30,499 nt of DNA from positions 1 to 30,499 of IMG/VR virus record IMGVR_UViG_3300047548_001270; one strand, given 5' to 3'. The translations under genes and the position numbers were made by a program. Origin of the DNA: a virus. Shown here one piece after another: positions 22 to 21,684 of the stretch (the first letter of the stretch is position 1; every line of letters starts with the position of its first letter). The notes beneath the pieces are model-generated. The model did not search any database, had not been told where the DNA came from, and saw only the letters and a list, made by a program, of their open reading frames with translations.

Positions 22-477
22 ATGTCTAAAACTTGTTCAAAATGTAAATTACAAAAAAAAGTAATAGAATTCTCTAAAGATAAAGGCCAAAAAGATGGCT
101 TATATCCTAGTTGCAAGAATTGTAAAATATTATATGCTAAAACCAATAGAGTTCAAGAATTAAGAAGAAATTGGAGAATTGAAAATAAACAAAGAATGCG
201 TGAAAATAATTACAAAAAGAGTTACGGAACAACGATTAAAGATTATGATGAAATGCTTAAAAAACAAAAGGGTAAATGCAGTATATGTTTATCCACTGAA
301 ACTAAAAATAAAAATTACAGTTATTTTGCAGTAGATCATTGTCATAAAACTGGAAAAGTTAGAGGTTTACTTTGTGATAAGTGTAACACAGCCTTAGGTT
401 CTTTCCAAGATAGTCCTGAAATTTTACTTAGAGCAATAGAATATTTAAAAGAAAACATGGAAATACAAGATGAGTAG
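22..477 (+). CDS. HNH endonuclease, endonuclease VII-like, free-standing
   Basis: A 151-residue protein. An N-terminal zinc site (C5-x2-C8 and C31-x2-C34) is followed by a basic linker. The C-terminal half has the endonuclease VII/HNH signature: C86-x2-C89, then D105-H106-x-H108 and RGLLC118-x2-C121-N. Such proteins nick or cut DNA and often behave as mobile, intron-less homing endonucleases in phages. The ATG follows GGAGGCAG. The gene is visibly more AT-rich than its neighbours, as is usual for mobile nucleases. Its last 8 bases overlap the start of clpP, which suggests insertion just upstream of that gene. The same N-terminal zinc module recurs in the endonuclease at 30043. The family is clear; the target site is unknown. 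Confidence 0.88.
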   Translation: MSKTCSKCKLQKKVIEFSKDKGQKDGLYPSCKNCKILYAKTNRVQELRRNWRIENKQRMRENNYKKSYGTTIKDYDEMLKKQKGKCSICLSTETKNKNYSYFAVDHCHKTGKVRGLLCDKCNTALGSFQDSPEILLRAIEYLKENMEIQDE

Positions 478-1042
478 CTCTTCAAAAGATACTGTTTTTG
501 ACTTACTAATAGATCATGGAATTGATATTAGAGGTAGAATTTTATACTTACAAGGAGAAGTTGATGAAGATATGTATAATAAGTTTGTTAAGCTTCTTAA
601 GTATTTAGATAAAACAACTGGCGATATTGAAATAGTTTTAAATAGTTGTGGTGGATGTGTTACAAGTGGTTTTGCAATGTATGATGCTATAAAAGCATGT
701 AATAATCCAGTTACAATAAAATGTTATGGAGCAGTTATGTCTATAGCTTCTTTAATATTGCAAGCTGCTGATAAAAGAATAATTAGCGAAAACTGTCGTA
801 TGATGATTCATAGAGGTGAAACTGCTCTCGCTGGTGATTTCAATATTGTTAAGAAAGCTATGCAAGAAGAGATGGAACTTGATAGAATGCTTTGTGATGT
901 CTACTTTGATAGAATGACCGATAAGAACCCTGAATATAAAAGAGCTGCATTAGAAAAACTTATGGATACTGATTCATACTTTTCTGCCGAGAAAGCTCTA
1001 GAGCTTGGGCTGATAGATGAGATTGAAGGTGACGAAGCCTAA
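470..1042 (+). CDS. clpP: ClpP-like serine peptidase (copy 1)
   Basis: A 190-residue ClpP-fold protein, close to the mature length of bacterial ClpP. The catalytic triad is visible: S91 in GAVMSIAS, H114 in RMMIH, and D168 in the D-x3-SA context near the C-terminus. The oligomeric core strand RILYLQGEVDEDM is present. ClpP assembles as stacked heptamers and degrades polypeptides fed in by a Clp ATPase. The window also encodes ClpA, ClpS and a second ClpP. This copy is on the plus strand and translationally coupled to the HNH gene. Its 3' end overlaps a convergent micro-protein gene by 83 bases. It could be a host-like ClpP or a procapsid protease relative. The ClpA gene and the typical ClpP N-terminus favour the Clp role. 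Confidence 0.9.
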   Translation: MSSSSKDTVFDLLIDHGIDIRGRILYLQGEVDEDMYNKFVKLLKYLDKTTGDIEIVLNSCGGCVTSGFAMYDAIKACNNPVTIKCYGAVMSIASLILQAADKRIISENCRMMIHRGETALAGDFNIVKKAMQEEMELDRMLCDVYFDRMTDKNPEYKRAALEKLMDTDSYFSAEKALELGLIDEIEGDEA

Positions 1043-6764: not shown

Positions 6765-7547
6765 TTATTTAACACTAAACAGTCCAAGTGTTGGTGCCAT
6801 CATAGATAGTTCACCTTGAATTCTAGAGTTAATTCCAACTACTTCACCATCGCTATTGATAACTGGTCCACCGGACATACCAGGAACAATCATAGATTCT
6901 CCTGTGTAATAAACTCCATATTGACCTATTGCTCTAAAGTCAATACATGTCGCTGGAGACATTCCATTTGCAAAGCCACAGCTTCTTAACATATCGCCAG
7001 ATTTAACTGTAAAATCAGTTCTAACTATCAACTTATTAAACTTCCTAAAATCACCATAAATAAATCCAAAATCTCTACTCGAGTCAGCATCTGCTGCCAT
7101 AGCTACAACTGCAGTATCATTACCATATACATCAAAAACTCTATACATAGTAGGTCTTTCTGTTTTTTGAAGTAATTCTAAGTATTTATTTTTAGCTATA
7201 ACTAATTTAGTTAATTCACCAATTTCTTCATCGCACGTATCTTTATAACATTGAATTTTTAAATTCTCAATATCTGCCTTAATATCTTCAATTTCTTTTG
7301 GAAGTTTTTCAATTGCTTTTGCCATATCTTCTTTAAGAAACTTAGCTGAGAACTGCATACAATGTGCTGCTGTTACTGCAATTTGATCTGATATTACAAA
7401 TGCTGAACAAGAACTTGTGGGTGTTCTTTTAATATTGATTATAGCATTATATTGACCATTGGTAGCTGGCTTGATATCATAATTATTAGTTGAAGAGCAG
7501 CTTGCCATCATCATCAGGAGAAGTAGGGATAAAAGAACTCGTTTCAT
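6765..7547 (-). CDS. Trypsin-like serine protease lipoprotein
   Basis: A 260-residue protein. The start is a lipoprotein signal peptide (MKRVLLSLLLLMMMAS-C17), then a trypsin/HtrA-like domain. Visible triad: H62 in TAAHC, D159 in SSRDFGF and S225 in GMSGGP, followed by VVGIN. A charged, probably coiled-coil insertion (about 66-128) separates His and Asp. The mature enzyme would be anchored in the inner or outer membrane facing the periplasm or outside. The ATG at 7547 has GGAG at the right distance and puts the signal at the N-terminus, so it is preferred over 7619. An exported protease is rare in a phage; it could act on envelope proteins or in superinfection exclusion (inference). Confidence 0.85.
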   Translation of the reverse strand: MKRVLLSLLLLMMMASCSSTNNYDIKPATNGQYNAIINIKRTPTSSCSAFVISDQIAVTAAHCMQFSAKFLKEDMAKAIEKLPKEIEDIKADIENLKIQCYKDTCDEEIGELTKLVIAKNKYLELLQKTERPTMYRVFDVYGNDTAVVAMAADADSSRDFGFIYGDFRKFNKLIVRTDFTVKSGDMLRSCGFANGMSPATCIDFRAIGQYGVYYTGESMIVPGMSGGPVINSDGEVVGINSRIQGELSMMAPTLGLFSVK

Positions 7548-7767
7548 ATTTGAACTCCATTTCAGCTTCACGCAAGACAATGTTTTTAGCTCTAATGAGC
7601 ACTTCCTGCTGCGTTTCATTATTATCTGGACTAGAATACATTATCTCTAAGCAAGACAATATATCTCTAGTTTTAAGATCTTTCTTCTTAAGACTGTTAA
7701 TAACATCATAAGCCCTTGAATTCTCATATCTTACTTGCTTATCAATATATTTCTGTAATCCTAACAT
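7486..7767 (-). CDS. Hypothetical protein upstream of the protease
   Basis: A 93-residue helical, charged protein with no recognised domain. The ATG follows AAGGAT. A -10-like TTATAAAT lies just upstream in a divergent promoter region shared with the sigma-like gene. Its last 62 bases overlap the protease start in another frame, and its C-terminus there (TSPDDDGKLLFN) is probably unconstrained. It is the first gene of the protease/ligase transcript. Confidence 0.6.
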   Translation of the reverse strand: MLGLQKYIDKQVRYENSRAYDVINSLKKKDLKTRDILSCLEIMYSSPDNNETQQEVLIRAKNIVLREAEMEFKYETSSFIPTSPDDDGKLLFN

Positions 7768-8595: not shown

Positions 8596-9294
8596 TTATT
8601 TCTTCTTTGATTTCTTCTTCGATTCGGTTTTCTTTTTAACTGGCTTCTTTGTAGCTTTAACTAAGTCATTTAATAGACCTTTAGCAATCGCCATTGATCC
8701 AGTTTTATCTTCAATCACAATAGGCTTCTTTGAAGGAAGAACTTCTACTGAATAAGATACGGATGGTCTAACCAATGGGAGACCAATAAAATCAATCAAG
8801 CCAATATTCTTAGCTTGTTGAGCGGTAAGATATAAATCTCTACCTTCGTTTTCTTTAATAATTGCTTTTAATTGTTCATACGACATACCACATCTTGCTG
8901 CGATAAGGTCCATGATCTGACGATTAATACGCTCATGTTCTTTAGCGTCTGTCTTAATATCATCTGCATGTCCTACAGCTCCACCAGAAGCCTCATGAAT
9001 CATAATACGAGCATCTGAGTCACAGAATCTAATATCACCTAAGGAAAGAAGTGCTGCACCTGCAGACATAGCTTTACCTTGACATACAGTGATAAATGTA
9101 TTAGGAACGCTTTTCATAATTGAAAGCATTGTGTTAAAGCTATCTACATATCCACCGTATGAATCAATAGTAACTACTATTGGCATACTAGGATCAACAG
9201 ATGCGAGTCTATTTACTTTCTTTCTAAAATCTTTGACAGATTCTTCTGTAAACTTATTAACGACTATCTCATGGTCTTCGAGTTCTTCTCTCAT
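8596..9294 (-). CDS. clpP: ClpP-like serine peptidase (copy 2)
   Basis: A 232-residue ClpP-fold protein. Triad: S77 in GKAMSAGAA, H100 in RIMIH and D153 in GRDLYLTA. The substrate-cleft segment DSYGGYV is conserved. After the fold (about residue 172) comes a 60-residue extension ending in a very basic tail (TESKKKSKKK). The N-terminus is short, with no obvious axial-loop region, unlike copy 1. It may form a mixed ring with copy 1 or be an independent peptidase; both carry full triads. The ATG follows AGGAG. A structured leader precedes it, and copy b of the repeated element lies within its 3' end. Confidence 0.88.
   Translation of the reverse strand: MREELEDHEIVVNKFTEESVKDFRKKVNRLASVDPSMPIVVTIDSYGGYVDSFNTMLSIMKSVPNTFITVCQGKAMSAGAALLSLGDIRFCDSDARIMIHEASGGAVGHADDIKTDAKEHERINRQIMDLIAARCGMSYEQLKAIIKENEGRDLYLTAQQAKNIGLIDFIGLPLVRPSVSYSVEVLPSKKPIVIEDKTGSMAIAKGLLNDLVKATKKPVKKKTESKKKSKKK
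8618..8629 (-). promoter_or_regulatory. Repeated element AACCGAATCGAA (copy b)
   Basis: This copy lies inside the C-terminal Lys-rich codons of clpP copy 2 (reading K-T-E-S-K) and ends 33 bases before the next minus-strand start at 8584. Its presence within coding sequence suggests selection for the DNA element and not only for the protein. The promoter role is inferred. Confidence 0.5.
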
Positions 9295-13137: not shown

Positions 13138-13300
13138 CTACCTCTTTCTCCATAACTTGGCCAATGTATTCACCAGCAGATATTGAAAACTTAAACTTTT
13201 CACCTAATATTTTTTCTATTGTGCGAAATAATTTCACTGTAGTCTTATAAGTATCTGTTACTGTATAAGTTCGTATATTATCTTGCTTAAATTTGATCAC
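13106..13300 (-). CDS. Hypothetical small protein, GTG start
   Basis: A 64-residue basic protein following clpA. The likely start is GTG at 13300, overlapping the clpA stop region by 14 bases, with AGAGG about 12 bases upstream. A T-V-K-L-F segment faintly resembles the TLxRF core but the spacing does not fit, so I do not count it in that family. Function is unknown. Confidence 0.5.
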   Translation of the reverse strand: MIKFKQDNIRTYTVTDTYKTTVKLFRTIEKILGEKFKFSISAGEYIGQVMEKEVDDRLQSVTDQ

Positions 13301-15584
13301 TTCCAGTTGTTACCTCTTCTGGTTTAACTTCTGCTTTAGGTGGCTTTGTAACTTCATACTTAGGAACACCATCAACGATCTTAAATGTAATAGTATCTAA
13401 CTCTTTAATTTCACCTTTAAGAATAGGTTTAACTAATGGCATATCAATATACTTCTTAACTGTTCTAGCAATTGGTCTAGCGCCCATAAGTGGATCATAA
13501 CCTTCTGCACTAATAAAGTCCTTAACTTCTTGTGTAACTACTAAGTTAAAATTCTTCTTCATAAACAACTTATTAATGCTTTGAAGGATGAATTTATCGG
13601 TAATCTTATCGATTACAGACTTATCTAACGAGTTAAAATGAACAATACCAGATAGCTTATTTCTAAATTCTGGTGCAAAAGTGGAATTAATGATCTCAGA
13701 TTTAACCTCGTGTTTAATATGTGCTACTTGTTCTTCTTTAGAATTAAGACCTAAAGGCTTCTTAACTCTTGCCGCTACTGCAGCTCCAGCATTAGAAGTC
13801 ATAAGGACTAATACATTTCTAAAATCTACTTTATTTCCTTCGCCGTCTGTCATAGAACCACCATCGATGATTCCCAGTAAAGCTTCACGAACTTTCTCAT
13901 GTGCTTTCTCAATCTCATCTAAAAGCAAGACTGTATGCGGATACTTGGTAATCTCATTTGTTAAGATACCACCTTCTTTGTGCCCTTCATAACCTGGAGG
14001 AGCACCAAATAGCTTCGCAGCTGAATGCTTTTCACCATATTCACCCATGTTAATTACCATGAAGTGAGACTCTGTGTGCTTAGCTAATTGCTTAGCAAGC
14101 TCTGTCTTACCTGTACCTGTAGGTCCAAGTAATAGAAAGCTACCAATAGGTTGACCATCGTCACCTAAACCGGCTTTATTCAATTCGTAAGCTTCAACAA
14201 CCTTCTCGATTGCTTCTTCTTGGCCGAATAATTCCCCTTTAATGATCTTTTCTAAATCTACATAGGAATTCTTGCCTGTCTTCTTTTTAAACGCAGAAAC
14301 AGGTGTTCCTGTGATTTTAGATACAATCTCTTCGACATCCGACACTGCCGCCGTGCGTCGCGTAGATGAATCATCTGTTCTTAATCTTGCCCCAACAGAG
14401 TCGATCAAGCTTATCGCTTTATCTGGAAAGTATTGAGTGGTAATATATTTACCAGACAATTCAACTGCAGCTTCTAATACTGCTTTAGGATATTTAACTT
14501 TATGGTACTTTTCAAGAACAGGCTTAACACCTTGCTCTAAGATACGTAAAGTTTCTGCTGCACTTGGTTCTTCAATCTTTACTTGCTGAAGACGTCTAGC
14601 AAAAGCTTTATCTTTAGAGATGTGCTTTTTATATTCGTCATCAGTTGTAGCACCGATTAAGCTCAACTCTCCACTTGCAAGCATTGGCTTAATAATGTTA
14701 CTCATATCCGGAGCACCAGGACCTTGTCCAGCAGCTCCAGCTCCCATAACCTGATGAAGTTCATCTACGAACAACACTGGTTGAATGAGACCTTCTTTTG
14801 TCATCATCTTAATGTCTTCTAGTAAGTCTTGAAGTCTTTGTTCAAAATCACCACGGAATTTAGTTCCACCGATCAATCTACTTACTTCTAATGAGAAAAT
14901 CTTAACATTCTTAATTGCTTCAGGTACTTGACCTGATTCAATAAGGGAAGCTAAACCTTCAACAACCTGAGTCTTACCAACTCCTGGAGGACCAACTAAT
15001 ACTGGATTTTTCTTTTTATGGTGAGCTAAGATTTCAACCATACGTTGAACTTCATCTCGTCTACCAATAAGAGGATCAATCTTTCTATTCTTTGCTTTCT
15101 CATTTAAATCATCGCAAAGCTTATATAATTCCTTATATTTACCTTTAGATTTAATGCCAGCATTTGGATTATGTTTGTATCCACTTGATTCTAAATGAAA
15201 GATTGTTTGACTATCTTTAACATTTGTTACAACATATAAACTATTGATAAAGTCTTCAAAGAACATATCTCTTTGCTCTTTACCTGCTGTCTTCTTAACA
15301 TCTTCAATTGTCTTCTTGAAGCTTGGAGTTAAAGCTGCTCCATTGTTTCCGAGCATTCTAGAGAACTGCTCATGAGCTAAAAGATCTGGTTCTTCTTTAA
15401 GAACTTGAGCTTCTAATAGAAGTTCTAATTTATCAATATCACAACCTCTAGAAGCTAGAAACTGTTGATTCTCTAGGTGATCATCATTGATACAAAAAAG
15501 AACGAACTTAGAAACGGAAAGAGTCAAAGACTTCTGCGAAGTAATTGCGCCCATAATAGTATCATCAGTAATTCGATTACTCAT
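13287..15584 (-). CDS. clpA: ClpA-type AAA+ unfoldase
   Basis: 765 residues against about 758 in E. coli. N-domain (1-140, the ClpS docking region), then two AAA+ modules. D1: Walker A GPPGVGKT (198-205), Walker B LFVDE (271-275), pore loop KFRGD (242-246), arginine finger R330/R331. D2: Walker A GPTGTGKT (487-494), Walker B LLLDE (553-557), sensor-2 GAR (701-703). There is no ClpB/ClpC-type middle domain. LGL at 611-613 aligns with the IGL/IGF loop that docks on ClpP. The D2 pore loop reads GYEG instead of the usual GYVG. It unfolds proteins and feeds them to ClpP. It overlaps nothing upstream; its AGGAG spans the clpS stop, so the two are co-translated. Confidence 0.95.
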   Translation of the reverse strand: MSNRITDDTIMGAITSQKSLTLSVSKFVLFCINDDHLENQQFLASRGCDIDKLELLLEAQVLKEEPDLLAHEQFSRMLGNNGAALTPSFKKTIEDVKKTAGKEQRDMFFEDFINSLYVVTNVKDSQTIFHLESSGYKHNPNAGIKSKGKYKELYKLCDDLNEKAKNRKIDPLIGRRDEVQRMVEILAHHKKKNPVLVGPPGVGKTQVVEGLASLIESGQVPEAIKNVKIFSLEVSRLIGGTKFRGDFEQRLQDLLEDIKMMTKEGLIQPVLFVDELHQVMGAGAAGQGPGAPDMSNIIKPMLASGELSLIGATTDDEYKKHISKDKAFARRLQQVKIEEPSAAETLRILEQGVKPVLEKYHKVKYPKAVLEAAVELSGKYITTQYFPDKAISLIDSVGARLRTDDSSTRRTAAVSDVEEIVSKITGTPVSAFKKKTGKNSYVDLEKIIKGELFGQEEAIEKVVEAYELNKAGLGDDGQPIGSFLLLGPTGTGKTELAKQLAKHTESHFMVINMGEYGEKHSAAKLFGAPPGYEGHKEGGILTNEITKYPHTVLLLDEIEKAHEKVREALLGIIDGGSMTDGEGNKVDFRNVLVLMTSNAGAAVAARVKKPLGLNSKEEQVAHIKHEVKSEIINSTFAPEFRNKLSGIVHFNSLDKSVIDKITDKFILQSINKLFMKKNFNLVVTQEVKDFISAEGYDPLMGARPIARTVKKYIDMPLVKPILKGEIKELDTITFKIVDGVPKYEVTKPPKAEVKPEEVTTGSDQI

Positions 15585-15592
15585 TCGTTCTC

Positions 15593-15928
15593 CTATGCTT
15601 CTTCTAATGTGAACTTTAAAACTGTAATTGCTTGAACTCTATTTGGAAAACATGATATTAAATATTGTTTTGCAAGGTCAACTGTAGCTAATTTACTTTC
15701 TGCTATCTCTCTAGAGTATGTACCACATACACCACGCTTCTCAGTGTTTACAATATGAGCCAGCTTTTCTGCTTCTAATTCTGTCTTTTCAAAACATCTA
15801 GAAACAATAAAGATAACTTCTTCAAACGATGTATGAGGATTGTCATGTATAATTACATTATAATTGACAGGTTCTTTCAATTTAACCTTTTCAATTACCG
15901 CAATGTCTTCTTGAATTTTCGTTGACAT
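15593..15928 (-). CDS. clpS: ClpS N-degron adaptor
   Basis: A 111-residue protein. After a short flexible N-terminus (1-20), residues 23-71 align without gaps with E. coli ClpS 28-76 (YxVI..., VCG, then AE-x-K). ClpS binds N-terminal degron residues and delivers the substrate to the ClpA N-domain. The E. coli degron contacts N34, D35, H66 and M40 correspond here to D29, N30, N61 and F35, so specificity is probably altered. It lies directly upstream of clpA. Copy c of the repeated element lies 28 bases before its ATG, and GAGGGATGG serves as ribosome binding site. A phage ClpS is unusual. Confidence 0.88.
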   Translation of the reverse strand: MSTKIQEDIAVIEKVKLKEPVNYNVIIHDNPHTSFEEVIFIVSRCFEKTELEAEKLAHIVNTEKRGVCGTYSREIAESKLATVDLAKQYLISCFPNRVQAITVLKFTLEEA

Positions 15929-15968: not shown

Positions 15969-16116
15969 ATTCGTCTAGAGCGTCTTTGAGTAGAAAAGCT
16001 AGATCGTTTGATTTGTTTACGAAGTCGTTACCTGAAATGATATGAAATCTTCTTAGTGTAAGAAGTAGGCTTAATGTGTATAAATAACTATTTAATGCTT
16101 TATCTTTTTTATTCAT
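15967..16116 (-). CDS. TLxRF-family micro-protein
   Basis: A 49-residue protein found by hand between the structured RNA and clpS. The core is LLLTLRRFHII, preceded by a second Leu-rich turn (YLYTLSL) and followed by an acidic end. There is no obvious ribosome binding site: AGGC lies eight bases before the ATG. It begins 18 bases after the U-run of the RNA. Function is unknown. Confidence 0.6.
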   Translation of the reverse strand: MNKKDKALNSYLYTLSLLLTLRRFHIISGNDFVNKSNDLAFLLKDALDE

Positions 16117-16124
16117 GTATGCCT

Positions 16125-16345
16125 AAATAAAAAAGCGGTTAGATAAGTAGGGAGGAACAACGAACAAAGCCAATAGGCTTTTATACAACTAACAAGGAAC
16201 ATAAAGTGCAATTAGACGGCGACAAATAACAACGAACGTTAGCTCTAATTTTTAGCCGTTGACAAGCACATACACCAATTGTAGTTTATTAATTCGACTC
16301 CGAAGAGTGTGAATTAATGGTTTTCCCTCTATTCTTCTAACCGCC
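16125..16345 (-). ncRNA. Candidate structured RNA, about 210 nt
   Basis: No gene is seen in this stretch. On the minus strand it starts with GCGGTTAGA (16344-16336), which pairs with TCTAACCGC (16143-16135); the stem continues with AGGGA/TCCCT, and TTTTTTATTT follows. Inside are a hairpin ATTAATTC/GAATTAAT capped by ACTC-TTCG-GAGT (16288-16318), a hairpin AAAGCC/GGCTTT (16166-16181), two crossing pairings that could form a pseudoknot (16210-16220 with 16245-16259), and a direct repeat GTTCGTTGTT at 16156-16165 and 16228-16237. The UUCG cap and the U-run fix the strand. It could be a free RNA or an attenuator before clpS. It does not look like tmRNA or a group I intron. Confidence 0.65.
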
Positions 16346-16353
16346 AAAGTCCG

Positions 16354-16932
16354 TTAAATCAGGCCGTTATCCTGAAGTAACTTCGTTGTAGTACTATTCA
16401 ATCTAACTTTAGATGAATAGTTAAGCTCAGCGAGCTTATCTTCTAATGCTTCAATTTCTTTCTGAGTGTTCTGTCTGTCTGTTCTGAACTTATCTTTATC
16501 TACTTGGTTCAAGAAGTAATAGCTAGCATTTGTTCTAGCATAATGAGCTGAACCACCTTCTAATTGCTTCTTATATAGAGAAAGAGTGTCTTCTAGGTCT
16601 TCTTGCTTAAAAATCTCTACATTTGTAAAGCTGTTAAGCAATTGCAGTTTAGTTTCTAATAGGACTTTATTAGAAATAAGATCGTCAATACCAACATTGA
16701 AATTGGCCTTTGCAATCAGGTCTCTAATCTCTTGTCTAACAAGAGTAAGATCATTAACTAACTTATAGTTCTCAAAGAACTCAAGACGACTAGCATCTAC
16801 TAAAGAGTTAATGCTTGATGGATCAGTATTTACTCTGATCGAGGCAGTTGTAGAGAGCTCTGATTTCTTTTGGTTGATAGCAACCTGAATCTTTGCTTCT
16901 AATTTTCTAGCTTTACGTAAGTTTAAATCCAT
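16354..16932 (-). CDS. Hypothetical coiled-coil protein
   Basis: A 192-residue, almost wholly helical protein with heptad-like stretches at about 1-25 (LRKARKLEAKIQVAINQKK), 60-75 and 150-172 (NTQKEIEALEDKLAEL). No membrane segment and no cysteine cluster. No family is recognised with confidence; a structural or scaffolding role is possible. The ATG follows CAGGAG. It precedes the structured RNA on the same strand. Confidence 0.68.
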   Translation of the reverse strand: MDLNLRKARKLEAKIQVAINQKKSELSTTASIRVNTDPSSINSLVDASRLEFFENYKLVNDLTLVRQEIRDLIAKANFNVGIDDLISNKVLLETKLQLLNSFTNVEIFKQEDLEDTLSLYKKQLEGGSAHYARTNASYYFLNQVDKDKFRTDRQNTQKEIEALEDKLAELNYSSKVRLNSTTTKLLQDNGLI

Positions 16933-17736: not shown

Positions 17737-17812
17737 TGGTAGCGGGAGATGGATTCGAACCAACGACCTCAAGATTATGAGTCTTGCAAGCTACCAACTG
17801 CTCTATCCCGCT
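17737..17812 (-). tRNA. tRNA with CAT anticodon (Met or lysidine-type Ile)
   Basis: Read on the minus strand: acceptor stem AGCGGGA/TCCCGCT, D-arm GAGC-AGTTGGTA-GCTT, anticodon stem CAAGA/TCTTG with loop CTCATAA, a 5-base variable loop, and T-loop TTCGAAT. The 3' end ACCA is encoded. The T-stem has one U-U mismatch (position 50-64). There is no initiator-type C1-A72 pair, so it is elongator tRNA-Met or the tRNA-Ile that needs lysidine at C34. I see no tilS gene. No introns. Confidence 0.9.
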
Positions 17813-19341: not shown

Positions 19342-21028
19342 ATTAAAAGCTGAAGGTAATGCCCCACAATGGATGAACGATCCTTCATTCAAGACTCTCT
19401 CTAAAGGATATATGCTTGATGGTGAAACTCCAAAGGATATGTATAGAAGAGTTGCTAAGACAGTGGCGAATAAACTAAACAAACCAGAGATGGAAGATAA
19501 GTTCTTTGATTATATGTGGAAGAACTGGCTTTGTCCTGCTACACCTGTACTTTCTAATTCGGGTACAGATCGTGGACTTGTAATCTCTTGCTTTGGCGAA
19601 ACAGTTCCAGATAGTGTAGATGGTATTTATAAGTCTGTACATGAGATGGCTATGCTATCTAAGTTCGGTGGTGGAGTAGGTGTTGACCTATCTAATATTC
19701 GTGGTCGTGGAGTATTAATTAAAGGTGGAGCAAATGGAGCATCTGAAGGTGTAACTCCATGGGCTAAAGTATTTGACTCTGCAACAATCGCAACCTCACA
19801 AGGTAACGTACGTAGAGGTGCAACGAGTTTGAACTTACGTGTTGACCATGTTGATATAGAAGAATTCTTAAGAATCCGTAGACCATTAGGTGACGTCAAT
19901 AGACAGTGCCTTAATATTCATCAATGTGTTCAAGTTACAGATGCCTTCATGAAAGAAGTAGCAGATGGCAATATGCGCTCTAGAAACATCTGGAAAGAAA
20001 TACTTAAGACTCGCTTAGAAACAGGTGAGCCATATATACAGTTCATTGATAATGTCAATAAAGCTAATCCTCAAATGTATAAGGATAAAGGTCTTGAAGT
20101 TAATATGACTAATATCTGCTCAGAGATTATGTTATTCTCTGATGTTGATCATAGCTTTGTATGCTGTCTTTCTTCTCTCAACCTAACAAGATGGGAAGAA
20201 TGGAAGGACACAGACTTAGTAGAAACTTCTATCTGGTTCTTAGATGGTGTCATGTCTGAATTCATTGATAAAGCTAGAGGTTTGCCTGGATTTGAACGTG
20301 CAGTAAGATTTGCAGAGAAATCTCGTGCATTAGGTTTAGGTGTTCTTGGATGGCATACCCTATTGCAACAGAAACAGCTCCCTTTTGAATCGTTTGCATC
20401 GATGCAACTGAATGCTCTCATCTTTAAGAAGATCAGAGAAAAGGCCGATATTGCAACGAGGGAATTAGCATTAGAATACGGAGAACCTGAATGGTGTGTA
20501 GGATATGGAGTTCGTAACTCTCATCTTCTTGCTGTAGCACCAACTGCATCTAACTCTATCATTAGTGGTGGAGTATCTGCTGGTATTGAACCTATTATGG
20601 CTAATGCTTTTGCACAAAGAACAGCTAAAGGTGTATTCTTAATTAAGAACATTACATTAGAAGAATTATTAGAAACTAAAGGCAAGAACGATGTCGAGAC
20701 ATGGAAGAACATTGTAGCCAACGAAGGAAGTGTTCAACAATTGAATTTCTTATCTGCAGAAGAGAAAGAGATATTCCTTACGGCTTATGAGATCAATCAG
20801 TCTGCAATTATTAGACAAGCATCTCAGAGACAGAAGTATATTGACCAAGGTCAGAGTTTAAATCTATTCTTTCCAGCTGATGCTGATCCAGCGTGGTTTC
20901 ATAAGGTACATAAGGAAGCTCATGAGGGTGGAATTAAAGCTTTATATTATCTTCGTAGTAGTTCAGTTCTTAAAGCTGATAATGCAAGTAGACAAAAAGA
21001 TGAAAGTTGTAAGAGTTGTGAAGGATGA
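19331..21028 (+). CDS. nrdA: Ribonucleotide reductase class I, large subunit (no ATP cone)
   Basis: A 565-residue catalytic subunit, short because the N-terminal ATP-cone is missing. It would lack ATP/dATP activity control. Active-site residues: C87 (ISCFG), N261-x-C263-x-E265 (NICSE), C278/C279, Y539-Y540 for radical transfer, and a C-terminal redox pair C560-x2-C563 (CKSC). The ATG at 19331 has GAGG six bases before it and overlaps nrdB; a longer frame from 19262 is rejected. It reduces ribonucleoside diphosphates with NrdB. Its stop overlaps the GIY-YIG gene (ATGA). Confidence 0.95.
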   Translation: MLNKLKAEGNAPQWMNDPSFKTLSKGYMLDGETPKDMYRRVAKTVANKLNKPEMEDKFFDYMWKNWLCPATPVLSNSGTDRGLVISCFGETVPDSVDGIYKSVHEMAMLSKFGGGVGVDLSNIRGRGVLIKGGANGASEGVTPWAKVFDSATIATSQGNVRRGATSLNLRVDHVDIEEFLRIRRPLGDVNRQCLNIHQCVQVTDAFMKEVADGNMRSRNIWKEILKTRLETGEPYIQFIDNVNKANPQMYKDKGLEVNMTNICSEIMLFSDVDHSFVCCLSSLNLTRWEEWKDTDLVETSIWFLDGVMSEFIDKARGLPGFERAVRFAEKSRALGLGVLGWHTLLQQKQLPFESFASMQLNALIFKKIREKADIATRELALEYGEPEWCVGYGVRNSHLLAVAPTASNSIISGGVSAGIEPIMANAFAQRTAKGVFLIKNITLEELLETKGKNDVETWKNIVANEGSVQQLNFLSAEEKEIFLTAYEINQSAIIRQASQRQKYIDQGQSLNLFFPADADPAWFHKVHKEAHEGGIKALYYLRSSSVLKADNASRQKDESCKSCEG

Positions 21029-21684
21029 TAGTTTACAAAGTTATTAATAAAATTAATAATAAAGTTTATATAGGTCAAACATCTAAAACTTTAGAAAATA
21101 GAATTAAAAGTCATATTAAAGAAGCAAACAATAATTCAAACTTATTATTACATAAAGCGATAAGAAAATATGGCATTGATAATTTTAGTTGGGAGATTAT
21201 TAAACACTGTTCCACAGTGCAAGAATTAAATGATACAGAAATTGCAACAATAAAACTTTATAAATCTATTGAAAATGGTTATAACATAACCAAAGGTGGG
21301 GTTGGAATATTAGGATATAAGCACACGGATAAGACCAAATCTAAAATTAGTAAATTAGGTAAAGGTAGGAAAATATCGGATATTGGCATTAAAAATATGT
21401 CAAATGCTAAAAAGAAACAATGGACAGATATAGAATATAAGGAAAAGCAGGTTAAAGCTGCTAAAAATAGATGGTCTAACAAACAAGAAATAGAAAAACA
21501 ATCAGTTAGAAAAGGTGGTAAGTATTTTATGGTTATTAATGAAAGTAATCAAATAATATGGAAAGGCTTATCTCAAAGACTCTGCTCTAGAGAGCTAAAT
21601 CTAGATTGTGTAGCAATTGGAAGATGTTTAAAGAATATTCAACAAACTCATCGTGGCTTTAGATTTACTTATTGCGAAGCTTAA
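21025..21684 (+). CDS. GIY-YIG endonuclease, free-standing homing type
   Basis: A 219-residue protein. N-terminal GIY-YIG domain (MIVYKVINKINNKVYIGQT, then NRIKSH with the catalytic Arg, and NGYNITKGG). The middle has a NUMOD3-like DNA-binding motif (GYKHTDKTKSKISKLGKGR), and the C-terminus is a basic region of the kind that reads DNA. Such SegA-like nucleases spread copies of themselves into related phages, and nrd genes are classic neighbours. It overlaps the nrdA stop and is clearly more AT-rich than nrdA. Its last 20 bases overlap a convergent micro-protein gene. Confidence 0.9.
   Translation: MIVYKVINKINNKVYIGQTSKTLENRIKSHIKEANNNSNLLLHKAIRKYGIDNFSWEIIKHCSTVQELNDTEIATIKLYKSIENGYNITKGGVGILGYKHTDKTKSKISKLGKGRKISDIGIKNMSNAKKKQWTDIEYKEKQVKAAKNRWSNKQEIEKQSVRKGGKYFMVINESNQIIWKGLSQRLCSRELNLDCVAIGRCLKNIQQTHRGFRFTYCEA

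Follow-up and report, generated by a model that had tools for sequence, protein, structure and literature searches.

The minus strand of the viral DNA analysed here (the window: 30,499 nt, positions 1 to 30,499 of IMG/VR record IMGVR_UViG_3300047548_001270) carries at about 16345-16125 an element that is, by comparative sequence evidence, a genuine structured RNA. Its constant neighbour is the upstream gene for a 192-aa protein and not clpS-clpA. In very distant large phages a conserved, covarying RNA accompanies this protein gene, encoded on its strand, and it displays UUG every 7 nt in regions that are kept unpaired. On these comparisons we consider it rather probable that the RNA serves the helical protein encoded next to it as a dedicated partner in a phage ribonucleoprotein module, and does not regulate clpS-clpA. 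The features concerned are the following.

16125 to 16345, minus strand: structured non-coding RNA of about 220 nt, 5' end near 16345, with compensatory changes in its homologue (L007/L052)
16336 to 16345, minus strand: 5' arm of the closing stem P1, GGCGGUUAGA
16288 to 16318, minus strand: hairpin with a C(UUCG)G cap, AUUAAUUC-ACACUCUUCGGAGUC-GAAUUAAU
16275 to 16284, minus strand: conserved core element CUACAAUUGG, identical in L007/L052
16256 to 16269, minus strand: conserved core element GUGCUUGUCAACGG, identical in L007/L052
16219 to 16232, minus strand: heptad pair 1, UUGUUAU UUGUCGC
16182 to 16195, minus strand: heptad pair 2, UUGUUAG UUGUAUA
16166 to 16181, minus strand: AAAGCC-UAUU-GGCUUU hairpin, between heptad pairs 2 and 3
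16154 to 16167, minus strand: heptad pair 3, UUGUUCG UUGUUCC
16134 to 16143, minus strand: 3' arm of P1, UCUAACCGCU, then a U-rich, terminator-like tail to about 16125
16354 to 16932, minus strand: partner gene for an uncharacterised all-helical protein of 192 aa with the start motif M-x-(I/L)-N-L-R-K-A, probably a distant fold relative of DIP1984/DUF6847
17737 to 17812, minus strand: tRNA-Met, with a promoter-like site ahead of it at 17852-17825
15593 to 15928, minus strand: clpS, a downstream neighbour in this phage lineage only
13287 to 15584, minus strand: clpA, likewise a downstream neighbour in this lineage only

A preliminary description of the sequence had placed a structured RNA at 16125-16345, and both its position and its parts were confirmed, on the minus strand. 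The stem joining the two ends with U-rich sequence after it, the UUCG-capped hairpin (16318-16288), the GGCUUU hairpin (16181-16166) and the 10-base repeat could all be located. The repeat, GTTCGTTGTT, is present twice and belongs to a wider pattern of three UUG pairs spaced by 7 nt (16232, 16195, 16167). The region had been described as free of reading frames, and no ORF of at least 60 aa covers it. A tmRNA had been dismissed and the RNA left without a family; in agreement with both, ARAGORN and Rfam identified only the nearby tRNA-Met, and the Rfam 15 covariance models gave no match on 16050-16420 even at E<=1. The RNA begins 8 nt past the stop codon of the 192-aa gene, and the tRNA-Met, two small ORFs, the partner gene and the RNA follow one another in line on the minus strand. 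Elsewhere in the window a GIY-YIG-type homing endonuclease gene (21025-21684, plus strand) lies directly 3' of the gene for the large subunit of ribonucleotide reductase. Folding energy was rejected as proof of an RNA because the complementary strand folds no worse: the z score is -2.8 for the minus strand and -5.5 for the unused plus strand, and the means over 40 relatives are -2.4 for the RNA strand and -3.0 for its complement, with CDS segments reaching -1.5.

Among known phage-related RNAs, the msr-msd RNA of retrons likewise has a stem that joins both of its ends, as is present in the window RNA. The absence of a reverse transcriptase had been taken to speak against a retron, and indeed searches of the window and of 13 larger relative records returned none. 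Large phage RNAs such as GOLLD and ROOL are also structured, phage-encoded and frequently located close to tRNA genes (cf. PMC12286853), whereas the window RNA has about 220 nt and no Rfam match. We found no paper describing such a phage RNA.

The case for a conserved structure starts from a single close homologue. A search with ClpA gave one identical contig and one diverged contig, IMGVR_UViG_3300047277_000495, in which gene order is preserved and identity to the window is 81% for ClpA (best segment), 70% for ClpS and 52% for the 192-aa gene. The homologous RNA retains the core CUACAAUUGG-N6-GUGCUUGUCAACGG (the spacer is N5/6 across the pair), and its P1 is GCAGUUAGUG/CACUAACUGC against GCGGUUAGA/UCUAACCGC, with compensatory changes that preserve the stem. 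In L052, this same homologue, the compensatory P1 reads GGGCAGUUAGUG/CACUAACUGCUU, and L016 has an analogous stem, GGGUAGUUGUA/UACAACUACCC. The cUUCGg hairpin lies on the 5' side in the window RNA and on the 3' side in L052. A scan of IMG/VR with the core pattern gave two real matches; a third, L010, lies inside an ORF and was discarded as a chance hit. Direct DNA searches of phage records with the RNA sequence returned nothing relevant. A MAFFT alignment of the window's whole divergent group was too diverged for a reliable consensus, and a simple stem search gave no clear P1 stem in L054-L057.

Strong covariation was seen in the best-sampled of the distant subfamilies (subfamily D, 16 sequences), where 50 pairs in 7 helices could be defined, with compensatory double changes in 31 of them and 94% of cells paired. 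None of 500 shuffles, which preserved column make-up and not relatedness, matched the alignment in percentage of paired cells, in double changes or in covariation score. When partners were displaced by 1-3 columns, pairing fell to 36-45%, a control that is favourable to the structure because the structure was derived from that same alignment. G-U cells outnumber A-C cells by 49 to 16, and the RNA strand is therefore the strand of the gene. Subfamily C shows double changes in 20 of its 33 pairs. Compensatory changes in homologues had been named beforehand as a test of the RNA, and they are present both in the relative with the 81%-identical ClpA and as covariation within the subfamily.

Successive searches of IMG/VR with the 192-aa protein raised the number of loci from 35 to 36 and finally to 74, and one further contig was found in a GTDB genome. 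Cultured phages with relatives are Vibrio phages Vp_R1 and 2.275.O, Brevundimonas phages, and Caulobacter phages CcrColossus and CcrPW. Among 71 distinct relatives of the partner protein, from large phages, a non-coding stretch of 200-330 nt lies on the same strand and usually right after the stop codon of the gene, the RNA often starting 5-12 nt past it. In the Dolichocephalovirinae, whose genomes are otherwise tightly packed, a gap of 284-314 nt follows the gene in every genome looked at. The placement of the RNA varies, being ahead of the gene in one group and one gene further on in another, and what stays constant is strand and proximity. The group with the RNA upstream of the gene has its own promoter-like site, TTGATT-17-TATAAT. 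The genes beyond the RNA vary among phages and include tRNA genes, an HNH gene on the opposite strand and unrelated ORFs; clpS-clpA stand there in the window's lineage only, among the loci looked at. A short form of the protein (133 aa; L044-L048, L080-L086) is followed by a different stretch, which contains GGTTAG...CTAACC and a strong terminator, and no clear heptad array or run was found behind it.

UUG heptads are a further feature of these RNAs. In the first 18 loci 45 UUG pairs occur at a spacing of 7, against 4.5 expected (sd 2.1; 200 dinucleotide shuffles, maximum 10), with a second peak at 14. Over the 71 distinct loci such pairs number 247 close to the gene on the gene's own strand, compared with 54 on the other strand and about 40 in as much flanking sequence. 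At least three 7-nt UUG pairs within 90 nt are found near the gene on its strand in 43 of the 71 loci, and in none of the 71 on the opposite strand or further away. The copy number of heptads varies from 2 to 6; CcrColossus has six consecutive ones (UUGUGGG UUGCGCG UUGUCCG UUGUAGC UUGCCCU UUGUCCA) in the 284-nt gap after gp272. In the subfamily D structure all 91 UUGs that belong to heptads are unpaired, compared with 17 of the 58 others.

The AlphaFold model of the partner protein is all-helical apart from a small pair of strands at the termini (pLDDT 92, pTM 0.66), and the near-invariant residues of the family are M1, N4, L5, R6, K7, A8, L62, R70, N77, G81, N171 and L186. Among phages, Foldseek found homologues in those of Caulobacter, Erwinia and Vibrio. 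Its best match in the PDB is 3kdq (Foldseek prob 1.00, Z 11.0, rmsd 7.9 over 144; helical folds match easily), which the bacterial DIP1984 profile identifies as DIP1984 (E 6.6e-45). Helical BAR-type matches of the model were set aside as generic. The same predicted fold occurs in Klosneuvirus-type giant viruses (BFVD A0A1V0SA40, Catovirus, and A0A5K0UAD2, Yasminevirus; Foldseek prob 1.00). NF038048 matches the partner protein weakly and in register over residues 100-173, at 12.5 bits and thus below its curated score of 70 bits, and hhalign of the phage proteins against bacterial DIP1984 is weak as well (P 0.03, probability 1.5%). Because of these weak matches we call the relation to DIP1984 likely and short of proof. 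The two families may have a fold in common, and in both a structured RNA follows the gene (DIP1984 family/DUF6847: NF038048, PF20935, PDB 3kdq), whereas the phage proteins are about 40 aa longer and the phage RNAs carry UUG heptads where the DIP1984 RNAs carry YAC heptads. Searches of Myxococcota with PF20935 and NF038048 found nothing. In the literature we found no paper on DUF6847, and mentions of DIP1984 or septicolysin were incidental as judged by title and abstract, mostly in plasmid surveys.

Non-coding sequence with common motifs lies behind DIP1984 genes carried by plasmids of cyanobacteria, alphaproteobacteria, actinobacteria and Moraxellaceae. Here 20 YAC pairs occur at a spacing of 7 against 4.6 expected and 13 at a spacing of 14 against 3.8, a pattern noticed only on inspection and in a small set of eight sequences, of which four are from related actinobacteria. 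Identity of any trinucleotide at lag 7 has a z of 4.7, and lag 5 is also somewhat enriched; there are no UUG heptads in these bacterial RNAs. Compensatory changes preserve the closing stem of the Moraxellaceae RNAs, which is GAACAUACUG/CAGUAUGUUC in one form and GAACCGAUUG/CAGUCGGUUU in another. Actinobacterial DIP1984-associated RNAs (L146, L148, L149, L150) contain a T-arm-like hairpin, GGUUCGACUCCC, possibly a tRNA-like part.

On an Acinetobacter chromosome the order is rtcR (opposite strand), rbn, rtcB, a gene for a protein of 166 aa that has no Pfam match (L160, 381-881), DIP1984, a 260-nt gap with the RNA, and rtcA. The sequence, CAKLQH020000004.1 (L160, L168), is filed as 'Acinetobacter phage MD-2021a' and is a bacterial chromosome, carrying aroA, pheA and the rtc operon. 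Cut tRNAs activate RtcR, and the Salmonella repair operon contains rsr and Y RNAs (PMC7790460). The Acinetobacter arrangement resembles that of Ro60 (Rsr) and Y RNA, in which a small RNA-binding protein and its dedicated non-coding RNA stand beside rtcB/rtcA under RtcR (cf. PMC7790460). The phage pair differs from Ro60-Y RNA in that the protein belongs to an unrelated helical family, while its RNA carries arrays of heptads and matches no Rfam family. No TROVE protein is encoded in the window, and in 2 of the 13 other records one is present as a separate, distant gene. Surveys of RNA-repair systems may already mention DIP1984 in such operons.

The phage protein-RNA pairs lie outside rtc operons, and one bacterial DIP1984-RNA pair, that of Acinetobacter, was found inside one. 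tRNA genes are found near many phage copies of the pair. RNA ligases occur in 10 of the 13 large records, a count taken from these records alone, but large phages often have them in any case. In contig 3300027985_000872 (L022) RtcB lies about 3.4 kb downstream of the pair on the same strand, and in contig 3300050034_000187 (L120) an RNA ligase lies about 3 kb upstream of it, also on the same strand.

These data bear on what the RNA could be if it were not a partner of the protein. The terminator-like end (16134-16125) stands before clpS and would suit an attenuator or regulator of clpS-clpA, which the preliminary description had offered as one option beside a protease-directed RNA. Yet other phages have the RNA with no clpS-clpA after it; what lies on the clpS side differs among phages, and the RNA moves across or away from its partner gene. 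Synteny therefore largely refutes the attenuator, to which we give next to no credence, and the same shifting neighbours and positions lend no support to a protease-directed RNA. What stands of that description is a structured phage RNA outside known families; the 192-aa partner gene upstream was absent from it. The window does encode, besides ClpA and ClpS (13287-15928, minus strand), two ClpP-like/head-maturation-protease proteins (470-1042, plus strand; 8596-9294, minus strand), which possibly form a phage-encoded ClpAPS machine, and a trypsin-like protease (6765-7619). Short tandem motifs might also belong to a feature of the DNA that mimics an RNA, such as a replication origin or protein-binding iterons at 7-bp spacing. 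This is very improbable in view of the compensatory changes, the threefold excess of G-U over A-C on the gene strand, the confinement of the motifs to predicted unpaired regions, always on the gene's strand, and a spacing of 7 bp that is not a helical repeat.

Two further readings accept the RNA and its link to the protein. The encoded protein could bind a structured 3' UTR or leader and so control its own mRNA, and the RNA, often beginning 5-12 nt past the stop codon, is probably co-transcribed with the gene. An element acting in cis would not be expected to lie downstream of the gene in some phages and upstream of it or one gene apart in others, nor to have a promoter-like site of its own as in one group, and we think such autoregulation decidedly unlikely. 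Alternatively the RNA could be a decoy or sponge whose many UUG heptads titrate the adjacent or a host protein off cellular RNAs. CsrB is such an RNA: a short motif, GGA, recurs many times in its open loops and titrates CsrA. CsrA-CsrB and RsmA-RsmZ are thus similar in having a non-coding RNA with a short motif repeated in open loops, and the variable copy number of 2 to 6 and the direct linkage to a protein gene would fit as well. The phage RNA, in contrast, has UUG every 7 nt instead of GGA in hairpin loops, it adjoins the protein gene, and the protein fold differs. Moreover, the large conserved covarying frame exceeds what a sponge needs, and the sole bacterial case with context has repair enzymes around it and not regulators. 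We regard a sponge as unlikely, if the most serious of these alternatives.

For the favoured reading, a dedicated protein-RNA partnership, the following mechanism can be proposed. The protein would bind the RNA, probably in several copies, one to each heptad along the open loops, and the covarying helices would form the frame of one protein-RNA complex. With less confidence, we suggest that in tRNA/RNA repair or surveillance this complex may play the part that belongs to Ro60 and Y RNA in other bacteria, and that it may help the phage to withstand tRNA-cutting defences. A role of the pair in repair is plausible by analogy because of the operon, the fold, the tRNA genes near phage copies and the RNA ligases in 10/13 large records. 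This leads us to speculate, more tentatively, that there is an undescribed RNP class of large phages and bacteria in which helical DIP1984-type proteins sit on unpaired 7-nt-periodic motifs (UUG in the phages, YAC in the bacteria) of the neighbouring structured RNA, serve in tRNA/RNA repair as a replacement of Ro60-Y RNA and are used by phages against tRNA cutting.

If these proposals were correct, many large phages, and probably many bacteria, would possess a class of RNA paired with a dedicated protein and recognized by an unusual grammar, in which an open strand presents a motif every 7 nt. DIP1984/DUF6847, sometimes labelled septicolysin, whose structure is solved and whose function is unassigned, would gain a testable role, and RNA-repair operons would contain a second type of RNA-protein pair beside Ro60-Y RNA.
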